A DNA stretch of 64,000 nt. Source: Seohaeicola zhoushanensis (GTDB lineage Bacteria; Pseudomonadota; Alphaproteobacteria; Rhodobacterales; Rhodobacteraceae). The notes below the pieces were generated by a model. The model did no database searches. It worked only from the letters and a program-made list of their open reading frames with translations, and was not told the origin of the DNA. Positions within the stretch are counted from its first letter, which is position 1. Each line of letters opens with the position of its first letter. The stretch is taken from NCBI RefSeq assembly GCF_014656415.1, contig NZ_BNCJ01000003.1:234075-298074 (forward strand). The letters are read 5' to 3'. The translations under genes and the position numbers were made by a program. Shown in pieces: positions 858-32,273 of the stretch.

Positions 858-1810
858 CCGCAATCCTCGAGGTCGACGCGCTGGAGCGCCGCTTCGACGT
901 CTCTGCCCCCTGGCTGAACCGCGTGATCGAGCGCAAGCCACGCCGTACCCTGCGCGCCGTCGATGGCGTCGACTTCACCATAGAACGCGGGCAGACCCTG
1001 GCGCTGGTAGGTGAATCCGGCTGCGGCAAGAGCACCATCGCACGGCTGGTGACGGGGCTGCATTCGCCGTCCGGCGGGTCGATCACCTTCCACGGCGACC
1101 GGGACCGGATGCAGATGATCTTCCAGGACCCCTACGCCAGCCTCAACCCGCGCTGGCGGGTCGGGCGCATCGTCGCCGAGCCGCTGCGCACGCTGCGCCC
1201 CGACACGCCGGACAGCATGGTCTCGGCCCGCGTCGACGAGCTGCTGCGCACCGTGGGCCTCTCGCCCTCGGACGCGTCCAAGTTCCCGCACGAATTCTCG
1301 GGCGGTCAGCGGCAACGTATCTCCATCGCCCGCGCGCTGGCGGGCGAGCCCGAGTTCCTGGTCTGCGACGAACCCACCTCGGCGCTCGACGTCTCGGTTC
1401 AGGCTCAAGTGCTGAACCTGATGAAACGGCTGCAACGCGAGATGGGTCTCAGCTATCTGTTCATCAGCCACGACCTTAGCGTGGTGCGGCACATGGCCGA
1501 TGTCATCGCCGTGATGTACCTGGGCCGCATCGTCGAGATTCAGCCAACCGCCGATCTATTCGCCAATCCGCTGCATCCCTACACGCGGCTGTTGCTCGAA
1601 ACGATCCCCGATCTCGAAGCGCCCAAACGCGACCGCGCCCCGATGGGCGGCGAAGTCCCCTCGCCCGTCTCACCGCCGTCGGGCTGCAGTTTCCACCCGC
1701 GCTGCCCGCTCGCCTTCGACCGCTGCAAGGCCGAGCGCCCGCTACGCCGCGCCGAGGTGCACGACCGCCGCGTCGCCTGTTTCGCCTGCGAGGAGAAGGC
1801 CCATGTATGA
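854..1810 (+). CDS. ABC transporter ATP-binding protein, DppF/OppF type
   Basis: Second ATPase (318 aa) of the same oligopeptide-family importer. A longer open frame begins upstream, but the ATG at 854 is chosen because it overlaps the TGA of the preceding gene and gives the normal family N-terminus ([14 protein letters not shown]). It has Walker A (GESGCGKST), the Q-loop ([14 protein letters not shown]), the signature FSGGQRQR, Walker B ([12 protein letters not shown]), the H-loop (FISHD) and the C-terminal Cys-containing extension ([15 protein letters not shown]). DppD and DppF form a heterodimer on two permeases. Its last codons overlap the following deaminase gene by 8 bases, which suggests one transcript and hints that the imported compound could be, or release, a nucleobase; that link is inference. 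Confidence 0.93.
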
Positions 1811-2300
1811 AGAGCGCTTCATGCGCCGCGCCATCGAGATCTCGGCACAGGCGCTCGAAACCCCCGGCACCGAGCCGTTCGGCTCGGTCGTGGTCAAGGG
1901 CGGCAGGATCGTCGGCGAAGGGATTAACCGCTCGGTGATGAACCACGACCCGACCTCGCATGGCGAGACCGAGGCCATCCGCGACGCCTGCCGCAACCTG
2001 CAGACGGTCGATCTGCGCGGCTGCGAGCTCTACACCAGCTGCGAGCCCTGCGCGCTCTGCGTGGCCGCGATGGGCATCGCCGGGATCTCGGCGCTTTACT
2101 ACGCCGCCGACATGGCCCAGGCCGGCGCTGTTCTGACCGGCCTGCCCGAGGCGGCGCGTTTCCCGATCGACCCCGACCAGCTGACCCGCGAATGCAGCCT
2201 GCCGGTCGCCAAGCGGCAGATGCCCTCCGAACAGCATCTCGATCGCCCCGCGGCCGATATCCTGGCCGAATGGGCGGCACGGGCCCGCAGCAGGGTCTGA
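1803..2300 (+). CDS. nucleobase/nucleoside deaminase (guanine deaminase-like, CDA fold)
   Basis: A 165-aa cytoplasmic deaminase of the cytidine/deoxycytidylate deaminase superfamily. The zinc site is intact: HGE (His ligand and catalytic Glu, in DPTSHGETEAIRDAC) and PCxxC (TSCEPCALC). The spacing and the words around both motifs most resemble bacterial guanine deaminase (GuaD of the Bacillus type) rather than tRNA adenosine deaminase TadA, which would lack the long C-terminal tail seen here. The likely reaction is hydrolytic deamination of guanine to xanthine, or of a related base or pterin. It overlaps the upstream transporter ATPase by 8 bases, so it probably acts on what that transporter imports. 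An xanthine dehydrogenase operon lies 44 kb away in the same window and could use the product. The exact substrate is uncertain. Confidence 0.8.
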   Translation: MYEERFMRRAIEISAQALETPGTEPFGSVVVKGGRIVGEGINRSVMNHDPTSHGETEAIRDACRNLQTVDLRGCELYTSCEPCALCVAAMGIAGISALYYAADMAQAGAVLTGLPEAARFPIDPDQLTRECSLPVAKRQMPSEQHLDRPAADILAEWAARARSRV

Positions 2301-2349
2301 GCACAGGTTTCGGCCCGGATCTGTCATGAAACTGTCACTGGCGCGGACT

Positions 2350-2377
2350 CCATATTTCTATTAATCGGGAAATATGG
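2350..2377 (+). promoter_or_regulatory. probable ArsR operator (perfect inverted repeat over the start codon)
   Basis: CCATATTTC, ten bases, then GAAATATGG: a perfect 9-bp inverted repeat in an otherwise GC-rich region. The right arm covers the ATG (2374) of the ArsR-ArsC fusion gene. ArsR/SmtB repressors bind AT-rich dyads of this size near their own promoters, so this is the expected autoregulatory site. Binding is inferred. Confidence 0.7.
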
Positions 2378-3216
2378 ATATAAACACCGCCACCAGTGCA
2401 TTCGCCACGCTCGGCCATCCCGGCCGTCTCGCCGTCTTCCGGCTGCTGATGCGACACGCCCCCCACGGCGTGCGCCCAACCGAGATTGCCGAGACGCTGG
2501 GGCTCAAGCAGAACACCCTGTCGCACCACCTGTCCGACCTCGCGGCCTCGGGCCTGGTCCAGGTCGAACGGCAGGGCCGCTCGCTGCTCTACTCCGTGAA
2601 CCTCGACCAGACCGAGGGCCTGATCGGCTACCTCGCCCTCGATGTCGGCCGGGGTCGCCCCGACCTCCTCTCCTCCCTCCTCGCCTCTGCCAAGGAGCCC
2701 TCCGCCATGGGGGACAAGACCTACAACGTGCTCTTCATATGCTCCGGCAACTCGGCCCGGTCGATCTTTGCCGAGGCGCTGTTGCGCGATCTCGGACGCG
2801 GCAAGTTCCACGCCTTCTCGGCCGGGGTGCGCCCCGGCAGCAGGCTGAACCCCTTCGCACTCGCGGTGCTGGACCGCAACGGGCACGACGTTCACGACCT
2901 GCGCGCCAAGCATGTCGCCGAATTCCAGCAGCCCGGCGCGCCGGTGATGGATTTCGTCTTTACCGTCTGCGACACCGCGGCGGGCGAGGAATGCCCGCCC
3001 TGGCCGGGTCAGCCGATCACCGGCCACTGGGGCCTGCCCGACCCGGTCAAGGCCACCGGAACCGACGCCGAAAAGGCGCTGCTCTTCGCCCAGACCTATG
3101 GCGCGCTCCAGCGCCGCATCGCCGCCTTCGTCGAACTGCCCTTCGCCAGCCTCGACCGCATCTCGCTGCAATCGCATGTCGACGAGATCGGCACCCAGGC
3201 CCTGCAAGAGGACTGA
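2374..3216 (+). CDS. ArsR-type repressor fused to arsenate reductase ArsC (LMW-phosphatase fold)
   Basis: A 280-aa two-domain protein. Residues about 1-100 are a winged helix of the ArsR/SmtB family ([22 protein letters not shown]...). Residues about 115-275 are a thioredoxin-coupled ArsC with the P-loop C123-S-G-N-S-A-R129, the redox pair C199 and C207 (CDTAAGEEC), and the catalytic DP motif at D223. All catalytic residues of arsenate-to-arsenite reduction are therefore present. The ArsR half contains no cysteine, so it lacks the usual As(III)-binding thiols; ligand sensing may be done by the fused reductase domain (inference). The ATG at 2374 fits the family N-terminus and lies inside a perfect dyad operator. 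It is followed after 5 bases by the GAPDH gene and then arsJ. No Acr3 or ArsB arsenite pump is in the window. Confidence 0.92.
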
Positions 3217-3221
3217 CCCCC

Positions 3222-4229
3222 ATGCCCCGCATTGCCATCAACGGCCTTGGCCGGATCGGAAAACTCGTGCTGCGCGGCCTGATTGACAGCGGCGCCGGCG
3301 GCGAGATCGTGCTGCTGAACGACCCGGTGGGCGACGCCGAACAGCATGCGCTGCTGATGGAGTTCGACTCGGTCCATGGCCGCTGGCGCACCCCGGTTGC
3401 CGCCGCCGAGGGCGCGCTAGTGCTGGACGGCCGGACCATCCGCCTGACCCACGAGAAGTCCATCGAGGCGCTACCCCTGGCCGAGCTGGGCGTCGACCTG
3501 GTGGTCGACTGCACCGGCGTCTTCAAGACCGCCGCCAGGGTCGCGCCCTATTACGCCGCCGGTGTGAACAAGGTCGTGGTCAGCGCCCCGGTCAAGGACG
3601 GCGGCGCGCTGAACCTGGTCTACGGGGTCAACCATCACCTTTACGACGGCTCGCAAGCCCTTGTAACCGCGGCCTCCTGCACCACCAACTGCCTCGCCCC
3701 GCTGGTCAAGGTCATCCACGAGAGCCTGGGCATCCGTCATGGCTCGATCACCACGATCCACGATGTCACCAACACCCAAACCATCGTCGACCGCCCGGCC
3801 AAGGACATGCGCCGGGCGCGTTCCGCGCTGATGAACCTGATCCCCACGACCACCGGAAGCGCCACCGCGATCACGCTGATCTACCCCGAGCTCAAGGGCC
3901 GGCTGAACGGCCACGCCGTCCGCGTGCCCCTGCTGAACGCCTCGCTCACCGACTGCGTCTTCGAAGTCGAGCGCGCCACCACCGCCGAAGAGGTCAACGC
4001 GCTCTTCGCCGCCGCCGCCGAGGGGCCGCTCAGGGGCATCCTCGGCTTCGAGACCCGCCCGCTGGTGTCCTGCGACTATACCAACGATCCGCGCTCCTCG
4101 ATCATCGACGGGCCGTCCACCATGGTGACCAACGGGACCCAGGTGAAGGTCTACGCCTGGTATGACAACGAATGGGGCTATGCCTGCCGCCTTGGCGACA
4201 TCACCCGGCTGGTCGCGGGGTCGATGTGA
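3222..4229 (+). CDS. glyceraldehyde-3-phosphate dehydrogenase, arsenate-resistance (ArsJ-associated) type
   Basis: A 335-aa NAD-dependent GAPDH with the Rossmann start ([15 protein letters not shown]), catalytic Cys153 in SCTTNC, and the C-terminal signature WYDNEWGY. The open frame extends far upstream, but the ATG at 3222, five bases after the ArsR-ArsC stop, gives the normal N-terminus and length. In operons with arsJ this enzyme uses arsenate in place of phosphate and makes 1-arseno-3-phosphoglycerate, which ArsJ exports (established for the GAPDH/ArsJ pair). Its position between the ArsR-ArsC fusion and arsJ argues for that role rather than central glycolysis. The stop overlaps the GTG start of arsJ (GTGA), so the two are translationally coupled. 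Confidence 0.92.
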
Positions 4230-5479
4230 CCACGACCACGGCGAATCCGCTGCGGGCCTATGGCGCGGTGACGGCGGCCTACTGGGCCTTCATGCTCTCG
4301 GACGGCGCGCTGCGGATGCTGGTGCTGCTGCACTTCAACGCGCTCGGCTTCTCGCCGGTGCAGCTCGCCTGGCTGTTCCTGCTCTACGAGGTCGCGGGCA
4401 TCGTAACCAACCTCGCCGCCGGCTGGCTGGCGGCAAGGTTCGGCCTGGCCTCGACCCTCTACGCTGGCCTCGCGCTCCAGATCGCCGCGCTGATCGCCCT
4501 GGCCCAGCTCGATCCGGGCTGGAGCGTCGCTGTCTCGGTCGCCTTCGTCATGACCGTGCAGGGCCTGTCGGGCGTCGCCAAGGACCTCGCCAAGATGTCC
4601 TCCAAATCGGCGGTCAAGCTGCTGGCCCCTAGCGGCGACGGCGGCCTGTTCCGCTGGGTCGCGGCACTGACCGGGTCGAAAAACGCGGTCAAGGGGCTGG
4701 GTTTCTTCCTCGGCGCGGCCCTGCTCGGCCTTGCCGGGTTTCGCACGGCGGTCTGGAGCATGGCGGCGGTGCTTGCCGTGATCCTGGTCGCCGTCATTCT
4801 GTTCCTTCCCGCGGGCCTGCCCGGACGGATGAAATCCGAGGAGACATGGAGCGGCTGGCGCTCGAAGGACAGCCGCATCGACAGCCTCTCGCTGGCGCGC
4901 ATGTTCCTCTTCGGTGCGCGCGACGTCTGGTTCGTGGTCGGAATCCCGGTCTATTTCCAGGCTGTCTTATCGGATGGCACCGCCGAGGGCCGGCGCGAGG
5001 CCTTCTTCCTGGTCGGCGGCTTCATGGCGCTCTGGATAATCGCCTATGGCGCGGTGCAGGCGCTGGCGCCGCGCCTGCTGGGGGCGCGAGGCCAGCCGGA
5101 ACAGGCGATCACCCAAAAGGCGATCCGCTGGGCCGGCCTACTTGCACCACTGCCCTTCGCGCTGGCCGCCGCCGCGTGGATCGCGGGCGAACCGTCACCC
5201 TGGCTGACAACGACTCTGGTCGCAGGCCTGCTGCTCTTCGGCTTCGTCTTCGCGGTAAATTCCTCGGTGCATTCCTACCTGATCCTCGCCTTCGGTTCGG
5301 CGGAGCGCATCACCCGCGACGTCGGCTTTTACTACATGGCTAATGCCGCCGGCCGCCTGCTCGGCACGCTGCTCTCGGGTCTCAGTTTCCAGGTCGGCGG
5401 GCTGCCGCTCTGCCTCGCCACCGCCGGTGCGATGGCGACGGCCAGCTGGCTGGCCGCACTCCGCCTTTCGGACGCATAG
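4226..5479 (+). CDS. arsJ: ArsJ, organoarsenical (1-arseno-3-phosphoglycerate) efflux MFS permease
   Basis: A 417-aa major facilitator protein with about 11-12 hydrophobic segments and the ArsJ-type N-terminus ([20 protein letters not shown]). The characteristic motif [19 protein letters not shown] follows the fourth segment. An ATG at 4172 is in frame, but a GTG at 4226 overlapping the GAPDH TGA is preferred because the extra residues are not family-like and would sit inside the GAPDH gene. ArsJ exports the unstable arseno-sugar phosphate made by the upstream GAPDH, removing arsenate from the cell without reduction. Together with the ArsR-ArsC fusion the operon encodes both an arsenate reductase and a reduction-free arsenate exit route. 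Confidence 0.92.
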
Positions 5480-5579: not shown

Positions 5580-6722
5580 ATGGGCGACCTTTCGGGCATA
5601 CTCGTCGTATCGATCGAACAGGCGGTCGCAGCCCCCTATCTCTCCGGACGGCTGGCCGAGGCCGGCGCCCGTGTCATCAAGATCGAACGCGACCAGGGCG
5701 ATTTCGCGCGCGGCTATGACCGGCTGGTGCACGGCGAAAGCGCCTATTTCGTCTGGCTGAACCGGGGCAAGGAAAGTGTCTGCCTTGATCTGAAGTCGCC
5801 CGATGACATGGCCATCCTGACCGAGATGCTGGACCGCGCCGACGTCTTCATCCAGAACCTAGCCCCCGGCGCGGCCGACCGGCTTGGCCTCTCGCCCGAA
5901 ACCCTGCGGGGCCGCAATCCGCGCCTCATCACCGTGACGATCAACGGCTATGGCGATACCGGCCCCTATGCCGAGCGCAAGGCCTACGACCTGCTGGTCC
6001 AGGCCGAGAGCGGTCTGTCGGCGATCACCGGGAACGAGGCCGGCACCGCTCGCGTCGGCGTCTCGGTCTGCGACATCGCCACCGGCATGACCGCGCATCA
6101 GGCGGTGCTGCAGGCGCTATTCGCCCGCCAACGGAGCGGACAGGGACGGCACATCTCGGTCAGCCTGTTCCACGCGCTGGCCGACTGGATGAACGTGCCC
6201 TACCTGCAATATGCCTATGGCGGCAAGGTCGCCGAACGGCAGGGCCTGCGTCACCCGACGATCGCGCCCTATGGCGTCTTCGCCGCCGCCGATGGCAAGG
6301 AGATCCTGCTGTCGATCCAGAACGAACGCGAATGGGTCCGCCTCTGCGAGCAGGTGCTCGACGCCCCCGCGCTCGCCACCGACCCGCGTTTCGCCAGCAA
6401 CTCCGACCGGGTCGCCAACCGGCCCGAGCTCGACGGAATCGTTGCCGAGACCTTCGCGCAGTTCTCCCGCGACGAGATTTTCGCGCGGCTCTCGGCGGCG
6501 GATATCGCCTGCGGCCAGGTCAGCAGCCTCGCCGATCTCGCCGAGCATCCGCAGAACCGATATGTCGAAGCCGACACGCCCAGCGGCCCCGTCCGCCTGC
6601 TTGGCCCCGGCGCGTTGGTCGATGGCGCGCTGCCGCAATACGGCCCGGTCCCGGCGCTTGGCCAGCACACTGATGCCGTCCGGGCCGAATTCACCCCGCA
6701 TCGCGACGAACAGGCCGGCTGA
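5580..6722 (+). CDS. CaiB/BaiF family (family III) CoA-transferase
   Basis: A 380-aa family III CoA-transferase. The frame is open further upstream, but the ATG at 5580 yields the standard N-terminus (GDLSGILVVSIEQAVAAPYLSGRLAEAGA). Visible signatures are the CoA-binding strand IKIERDQGDFAR, the NRGKESVCLDLK segment, and the catalytic aspartate in the YDLLVQAESGL segment (residues about 138-148). These enzymes move CoA from a donor such as succinyl-CoA to an organic acid in the cytoplasm. The acyl-CoA dehydrogenase and MaoC-type hydratase that follow form a three-step set: activation, oxidation, hydration. The same gene combination occurs in itaconate/mesaconate-type pathways, but the acid used here is not determined by sequence. 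Confidence 0.9.
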   Translation: MGDLSGILVVSIEQAVAAPYLSGRLAEAGARVIKIERDQGDFARGYDRLVHGESAYFVWLNRGKESVCLDLKSPDDMAILTEMLDRADVFIQNLAPGAADRLGLSPETLRGRNPRLITVTINGYGDTGPYAERKAYDLLVQAESGLSAITGNEAGTARVGVSVCDIATGMTAHQAVLQALFARQRSGQGRHISVSLFHALADWMNVPYLQYAYGGKVAERQGLRHPTIAPYGVFAAADGKEILLSIQNEREWVRLCEQVLDAPALATDPRFASNSDRVANRPELDGIVAETFAQFSRDEIFARLSAADIACGQVSSLADLAEHPQNRYVEADTPSGPVRLLGPGALVDGALPQYGPVPALGQHTDAVRAEFTPHRDEQAG

Positions 6723-32218: not shown

Positions 32219-32273
32219 TTCGGGTCCCGGCTGGCATTTAACTGTCATTTCAAGGCCATTGGATTCATTCACA

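Follow-up and report, generated by a model that had tools for sequence, protein, structure and literature searches.

An ArsR-ArsC fusion with a cysteine-free repressor half, an operator-like dyad and a predicted Pho box heads an arsenate-efflux operon in Seohaeicola zhoushanensis

The region described here lies in a 64,000-nucleotide stretch of Seohaeicola zhoushanensis DNA, referred to throughout as the window. A deaminase-like gene is followed by arsRC, in which an ArsR repressor and an ArsC arsenate reductase are encoded as a single polypeptide, and then by gapdh and arsJ. A predicted Pho box precedes arsRC and a perfect dyad extends over its start codon (Table 1).

Table 1. Features of the arsRC-gapdh-arsJ locus (window coordinates)
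Feature	Position	Strand	Evidence
Deaminase-like gene preceding arsRC	1803-2300		
Pho box CTGTCAT-GAAA-CTGTCAC, predicted PhoB site	2321..2338	+	14/14 repeat letters, -53 from ATG
Perfect dyad (two 10-bp arms around 10 bases), predicted operator over start codon	2349..2378		Complementarity, conservation
CATATT, alternative -10-like element	2351-2356		
TATTAAT, putative -10-like element within dyad	2359..2365	+	Conserved asymmetric tATTC centre in all three relative groups
arsRC, ArsR-ArsC fusion, 280 aa, ATG start	2374..3216	+	ORF translation, family models, AlphaFold2 model, Foldseek
ArsR half, residues 1-103, without Cys, AfArsR-like fold	2374..2682	+	Pfam, model, Foldseek (6j05_B)
Site of lost triad, V91, G92, L99 (C, C, C in 91/196 relatives)	2644..2670	+	Alignment
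ArsC domain, residues 117-251, with C123, R129, C199, C207, D223	2722..3126	+	Pfam, alignment, Foldseek
ArsJ-associated glyceraldehyde-3-phosphate dehydrogenase (gapdh)	3222..4229	+	NF033735 533.6 bits, cut-off 450
arsJ, MFS efflux permease, GTG start, overlaps preceding gene's stop	4226..5479	+	NF033734 521.2 bits, cut-off 400

Both halves of the protein are recognised by family models. The winged helix-turn-helix of the ArsR/SmtB family is detected by HTH_metalloreg (NF033788, NCBIfam; 61.7, cut-off 55) and by the Pfam models HTH_20 (residues 13-64; 40 bits, cut-off 27) and HTH_5 (28.1 bits, cut-off 22), while LMWPc covers residues 119-251 (50 bits, cut-off 23.2). The hallmarks of a thioredoxin-linked ArsC of the LMW-PTP fold are present in the second half, namely the Cx5R loop, the redox Cys pair and the catalytic Asp; its score against the curated equivalog model arsC_pI258_fam (TIGR02691), 64.6 bits, lies far below the cut-off of 174.3. 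An AlphaFold2 model built from 67 sequences (mean pLDDT 87.5) consists of an ArsR fold and an ArsC fold, the last ArsR helices spanning residues 77-94 and 96-103 and a low-confidence linker residues 105-111. In Foldseek searches the ArsR half pairs with AfArsR of Acidithiobacillus ferrooxidans (6j05, chain B, TM 0.92 by target length, rmsd 1.1) and the ArsC half with D. indicus ArsC2 (8p6m, TM 0.93 by target) and B. subtilis ArsC. The first-pass annotation had described a repressor half devoid of cysteine, and hence of the usual As(III) site, joined to an ArsC domain retaining C123, R129, C199, C207 and D223. Translation confirms this description: the five residues occur at exactly these positions, residues 1-122 contain no Cys, and thiol As(III) sites of the AfArsR, E. 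coli or C. glutamicum type are consequently absent from them. Retention of the redox residues leaves the idea of the ArsC half as a dead sensor unsupported.

Similar proteins are frequent in the host family, with a match at E 1e-20 or better in 276 of 394 genomes and, among the matches listed, aligned places that span nearly the whole arsRC protein. They occur in Rhodobacter, Paracoccus, Tabrizicola, Gemmobacter and Ruegeria, and on plasmids of R. capsulatus and C. sphaeroides. The 229 matching loci yielded 210 fused proteins, 196 of which are distinct. Occurrence of the fusion in 196 distinct proteins, together with conservation of the dyad, the Pho box and the ArsC residues, rules out chance or misannotation.

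The gapdh and arsJ genes are adjacent, exceed the cut-offs of their models and directly follow arsRC, the arrangement of an arsenate-efflux operon. GAPDH also adjoins 181 of the 196 fused relatives, accompanied by ArsJ in 171, and is present in 177 of the 190 relatives having at least 1100 nt of downstream sequence. The operon thus serves arsenate, not arsenite, and we infer that arsRC is the autoregulator of arsRC-gapdh-arsJ. Elsewhere in the host genome an ACR3 arsenite pump gene scores above its cut-off (G000:C6:14293-15273); inspection by eye of the main ORFs in the 9 kb around it revealed no ArsR or ArsC. The ArsC half is not the sole arsenate reductase of the genome, as a glutaredoxin-type ArsC is also encoded (TIGR00014, 117.6 against a cut-off of 106.05).

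The absence of cysteine from the ArsR half is secondary: of the 196 fusions in the family, 91 retain an As(III) triad of the AfArsR type. At positions 91, 92 and 99, between the final long ArsR helix and the linker, the sequence is CCC in these 91 proteins (for example DCCRGRPDLC), contains one or two cysteines in 15 and none in 90. Aligned to the solved structure, the CC pair of the triad-bearing relatives falls on the CC of AfArsR (Cys95/Cys96), the third Cys being one residue further on than in AfArsR. Sixty-seven of the 196 fusions are entirely free of Cys over residues 1-113, and all 67 keep C123, C199 and C207; a cysteine-free repressor and a full redox set are therefore retained together. 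Across the whole set C123, R129 and C199 are invariant (196/196), and C207 and D223 are each present in 195, the exceptions, L231 and L226, both lying outside the clade of arsRC. The first-pass annotation was therefore correct as to the cysteine-free repressor half but overlooked the secondary nature of the loss, the Cys-keeping relatives, the gapdh-arsJ pair and the Pho box. Fusion as the simple cause of Cys loss is ruled out by the 91 fusions that keep CCC. At 12 loci where arsR and arsC are adjacent and unfused, all 12 ArsRs have CC followed, four to six residues later, by a third Cys; neither gapdh nor arsJ was seen in their short flanks. From these sequence comparisons we read an order in which an AfArsR-type sensor encoded beside arsC would have been fused to it with the triad intact, gapdh-arsJ would then have been joined, and the triad would have been lost last.

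A FastTree tree, constructed without the triad region and rooted by choice on L170, places arsRC in an 86-row clade (support 95) comprising 84 triad-less rows, one partial and one CCC row, with a Pho box in 84 of the 86. The 20 non-CCC rows outside this clade are scattered over several places (L179; L182; L212; L183 with L098 and L151; L176; L099; L097; L117; L221; L137/L138/L230; L231; L033/L092; L175; and the distant L166 and L170), and a minimum of 13 changes between CCC and not-CCC is required on the tree. A triad-bearing ancestor of every fusion is made less certain by L166 and L170, distant fusions that lack both gapdh and the triad and lie at the base of this arbitrarily rooted tree. 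Several individual proteins depart from the general pattern. L091 (5001-5816) is the only CCC protein inside the triad-less clade, reflecting regain, recombination or misplacement. The L097 fusion has CCL in place of CCC, and downstream of arsJ at the same locus is a second, stand-alone ArsC-like ORF (5724-6209), 54% identical to the ArsC half. Plasmid pRCB133 of R. capsulatus SB1003 carries a triad-less arsRC-gapdh-arsJ with TGTCATGAAAGCTTCAC upstream, and the ArsR half of its ArsRC (L378, 3974-4819) has three Cys elsewhere, two near the N-terminus and one in CGL. These are possibly a new As(III) site resembling that of C. glutamicum, described as Cys15, Cys16 and Cys55 (PMC13236881). Plasmid pDE of Cereibacter sphaeroides 2.4.1 carries a one-Cys version (CGM-like) of the triad-less arsRC-gapdh-arsJ.

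The perfect dyad that the first-pass annotation had drawn over the ATG (2374) is present and is one pair longer than the 2350-2377 given there, TCCATATTTC (2349-2358) being the exact reverse complement of GAAATATGGA (2369-2378) across 10 bases. In 2000 dinucleotide shuffles of 2301-2385, 10-bp arms were never obtained and 9-bp arms were obtained in three. Arm length alone is nevertheless weak evidence, because perfect 10-bp arms with spacers of about 2-14 occur at 13 places in the 64-kb window. Conservation provides the stronger support for a predicted operator role: the TTC/GAA pairs at -18/-3, -17/-4 and -16/-5 (numbered relative to the ATG) show complementarity in 181, 186 and 181, respectively, of 191 relatives (of the 196 rows, L166, L170, L198, L216 and L231 were left out). 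The start-region consensus is atatTTCC..tAtTC.GGAA.tATGGAA in the triad-less group with the box and atAtTTC.a.tATTCatGAAaTATGGAA in the triad group without it. The asymmetric tATTC in the middle of the dyad resembles a -10 element, from which we infer that transcription would begin at the ATG itself or beside it.

Recognition helix and operator are both conserved in the triad-less group. Mean HTH entropy is 0.70 bits in this group versus 1.50 bits in the triad group, which is also more diverse; L166, L170, L179, L212, L175 and L092 (triad-less) and L091 (CCC) were dropped from this comparison. Residue 51 of the recognition helix associates with operator bases -6 and -15 (Fisher 1.7e-22 and 3.6e-16, with only 3 independent pairs). 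This fits binding to the dyad but was rejected as proof of it, the association being mostly a single lineage split, since the independent pairs are so few and bases -33 and -32, outside the dyad, also associate with residue 51 at about 1e-13.

Upstream of the dyad, at -53 from the ATG, CTGTCATGAAACTGTCAC matches all 14 letters of the two Pho-box repeats, scored against a consensus that we take to be the standard one. Its perfect score and conserved placing before the promoter would fit a member of the Pho regulon. When a box was called in relatives at 9 or more of the 14 letters at -54 to -51 from the ATG, triad-less relatives had one in 86 of 90 cases, partial relatives in 9 of 15 and CCC relatives in 26 of 91, compared with 30 of 1372 control windows. 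The strict pattern TGTCAYNNAAMNKTCAY occurs once in the 5.5-Mb host genome, at arsRC. With up to two mismatches CTGTCATNNNNCTGTCAT is found at 18 genome sites and the reversed pattern at 6. One of the 18 sites starts 87 nt before the ATG of the PhoX phosphatase gene, which supports the reading of this motif as a PhoB site in the host organism; most of the others have no recognised Pho-type neighbour gene. Another exact match (C1, L232), from a separate search, was dropped; it adjoins an ORF that we take to be malate-dehydrogenase-like. Within the window, CTGGCATTTAACTGTCAT (32231-32248, + strand) differs from the Pho box by one mismatch and precedes a small gene at about 32330, presumably, from its appearance by eye, an IHF alpha subunit gene. 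The Pho box before arsRC suggests PhoB, acting at a predicted site, as a second input to the operon. A Pho box is described as two 7-bp repeats with a 4-bp spacer, and PhoB controls another arsenic operon, aioBA of Halomonas (PMC4563254). In phosphate-depleted Nodularia, reported log2 changes are 1.57 and 2.41 for GAPDH, 0.29 and 1.20 for arsJ and -1.21 and -1.14 for arsR, in a text that speaks of little change in the majority of arsenate-related genes (PMC9846622). The Pho box and triad loss are associated when counted by rows (Fisher 6e-20), mostly through one big clade, and not significantly over 8 independent pairs. As a cause of Cys loss the box was rejected, this being an association only, without significance in the independent-pairs test and opposed by the fusions of reversed domain order.

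Those reversed fusions emerged from gapdh-arsJ operons in the wider phylum, in which GAPDH matches at E 1e-140 or better in 119 of 398 genomes. We surveyed 90 gapdh-arsJ loci (30 and 60 from separate searches), 53 of which contain 54 stand-alone ArsRs, 53 with at least two Cys and one (L295) with a single Cys; no ArsR was found in the flanks of 34 loci. Four loci (L285, L301, L304 and L320) encode a mirror fusion, ArsC first and ArsR second, so that gammaproteobacterial gapdh-arsJ operons can also bear a fusion. Searching 244 genomes of the order to which L301 belongs, with L301 as query, and adding L304 and L320 gave 24 mirror fusions (L348-L370 without L363, L304 and L320; L285 and L301 are the same places as L349 and L348), 16 with GAPDH in the locus. 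Many retain an E. coli-type LCVC motif, and 18 of the 24 have at least two Cys in the ArsR half. As 91 of the 196 fusions in the present order likewise keep their ArsR cysteines, fusion alone does not remove the triad. The remaining six (L348, L349, L366, L367, L369 and L370), about four lineages judged by similarity, have one Cys or none. This proportion, 6 of 24, compares with 1 of 54 for stand-alone ArsRs beside gapdh-arsJ (Fisher 0.003, uncorrected for relatedness). Three mirror fusions with 3 Cys, L350-L352, have Pho boxes some 11 nt upstream of TATTAT, with scores of 13, 13 and 11 out of 14, whereas the Cys-poor L348 and L349 have none. The predicted boxes of L350-L352 show that Pho boxes arose before such operons elsewhere too, and their location at fusions other than the Cys-poor ones disfavours the view that Pho box and Cys loss generally go together. 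The stand-alone ArsR of L295/L363 shares an LCVYELT motif with L348 and L349 of the same genus, with no ArsC match in its frame, as if a fusion had come apart.

The fused architecture itself is not new. ArsR-ArsC fusions, compared here by description, are known as single chains from Leptospirillum, Microbacterium, Sinorhizobium and Actinobacteria (PMC6205960, PMC4443643, PMC6514093), the Actinobacteria paper speaking of ArsC-ArsR fused proteins (PMC6514093), and from Paracoccus (PMC9479143). The L. ferriphilum operon differs, being arsU-arsRC-arsB (PMC4443643), and the gapdh-arsJ route of arsenate efflux was also known (PMC6205960). ArsRC of Paracoccus sp. (Chen, Galvan, Nadar, Yoshinaga, Rosen 2022, doi 10.1111/1462-2920.15957), a translational fusion from a related genus said to sharpen arsenic sensing, is described as reducing arsenate and then binding As(III) on the ArsR of the same protein (PMC9479143). 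The protein studied here likewise unites ArsR and ArsC but lacks Cys in its ArsR half, so that, judged from its sequence, the Paracoccus model fits the triad-bearing relatives and not arsRC as it stands. AfArsR, the closest solved fold and sequence to the ArsR half, is a stand-alone As(III) sensor with the ligands Cys95, Cys96 and Cys102 (PMC13236881), where arsRC has V91, G92 and L99. The As(V)-inducible arsR-varG-varH-arsJ operon of V. cholerae shares arsenate efflux, GAPDH, ArsJ and an ArsR altered at the As(III) motif (E to K, C to A); it differs in its stand-alone ArsR, without ArsC fusion, and in an extra phosphatase gene (PMC9601151). Among open-licence PMC papers, our searches brought up none that deals with an ArsRC lacking ArsR cysteines, with a Pho box upstream of arsRC-gapdh-arsJ or with ArsC-ArsR fusions of mirror order next to gapdh-arsJ.

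Direct reading of the sequence gives the fusion and its operon, a conserved operator-like dyad with a Pho box upstream, an intact ArsC active site and, for the clade, loss of the As(III) triad. The reading that we favour, at a probability of roughly 0.45, is of a repressor whose ArsC half would read arsenate, with PhoB as second input. The ArsR half would sit on the dyad as a dimer and block its own promoter, which PhoB bound at the Pho box would drive in phosphate-starved cells. Stand-alone ArsC forms a C123-arsenate adduct (arsRC numbering), passes through C123-C199 and C199-C207 disulphides and is reset by thioredoxin. Arsenate would be read by the ArsC half through such a cycle, which would shift the conformation near the hinge, at the former triad site, and detach the ArsR half from DNA. 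In the ancestor, As(III) formed by reduction of arsenate was probably passed to a triad at the hinge, as described for Paracoccus ArsRC, and the arsRC clade would have dropped this second, As(III)-binding step. As the ArsR half has none of the known Cys sites with which to bind As(III) from ArsC, the published hand-over does not apply here as it stands; arsenic would then have to be detected by a different route, possibly through the enzyme half. Indirect support for ArsC as sensor, the proposal of the first-pass annotation, comes from retention of the ArsC residues in 196 fusions while the ArsR triad was lost several times, and from the Cys-poor ArsR half of 6 of the 24 mirror fusions. Loss of ArsR cysteines and retention of those of ArsC in two domain orders would be expected if ArsC took over the input. 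We hold more tentatively, and with some doubt, a broader proposal, that a one-component repressor-enzyme, in which the catalytic or disulphide state of ArsC and not a metal-binding Cys site would control DNA binding and arsenate would be sensed by turnover, arose at least twice in gapdh-arsJ operons, in opposite domain orders, followed in both by decay of the As(III) site.

Much the same picture would result from drift after acquisition of PhoB control, or from an enzyme that is simply tethered. The ArsR half could be an autorepressor that senses no arsenic and only sets the level of an operon induced by PhoB, with ArsC as the tethered enzyme. The 14/14 Pho box and its presence in 86 of 90 triad-less versus 26 of 91 triad-bearing relatives agree with this, as an arsenic sensor may be dispensable under PhoB control and its triad would then decay; strong conservation of the repressor half and operator in the triad-less group, evident in the HTH entropies, and Cys loss in mirror fusions without a clear Pho box make it unlikely. 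Arsenite, made in place or derived from the cell, could still be the signal if C123, C199 and C207 held it, in a displaced form of reduction followed by sensing. The three cysteines of ArsC do meet during catalysis, and the As(III) sensed by Paracoccus ArsRC is described as a product of that protein itself (PMC9479143), yet stable As(III) on ArsC, able to shift the ArsR half, would be required, and we regard this as similarly improbable. Least probable among these alternatives is recognition by the ArsR half of a non-thiol ligand such as arsenate, phosphate or 1-arseno-3-phosphoglycerate. The V. cholerae ArsR, altered at the As(III) motif in an As(V)-inducible operon, is a possible precedent (PMC9601151), and a stand-alone ArsR beside gapdh-arsJ (L338) has SVSVGDLSVAL where the E. 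coli-type motif sits; against it, among 54 stand-alone ArsRs from gapdh-arsJ loci just one has fewer than two Cys, so that Cys poverty goes mainly with fusion to ArsC.

Arsenic biosensors are built on ArsR proteins, the textbook sensors of As(III), and arsenate is thought to be felt only after its reduction. The unfused pair with the triad, the fusion with the triad, the fusion without it and the mirror fusion form a natural series in which an enzyme domain may be taking the place of a metal site in providing a repressor with its input, a proposal testable by swapping halves; an arsenate-specific sensor, if true, would also be useful. The Pho box would couple arsenate efflux to phosphate starvation, the condition under which arsenate is the strongest competitor for uptake, in a family with a match in 276 of 394 sampled genomes.
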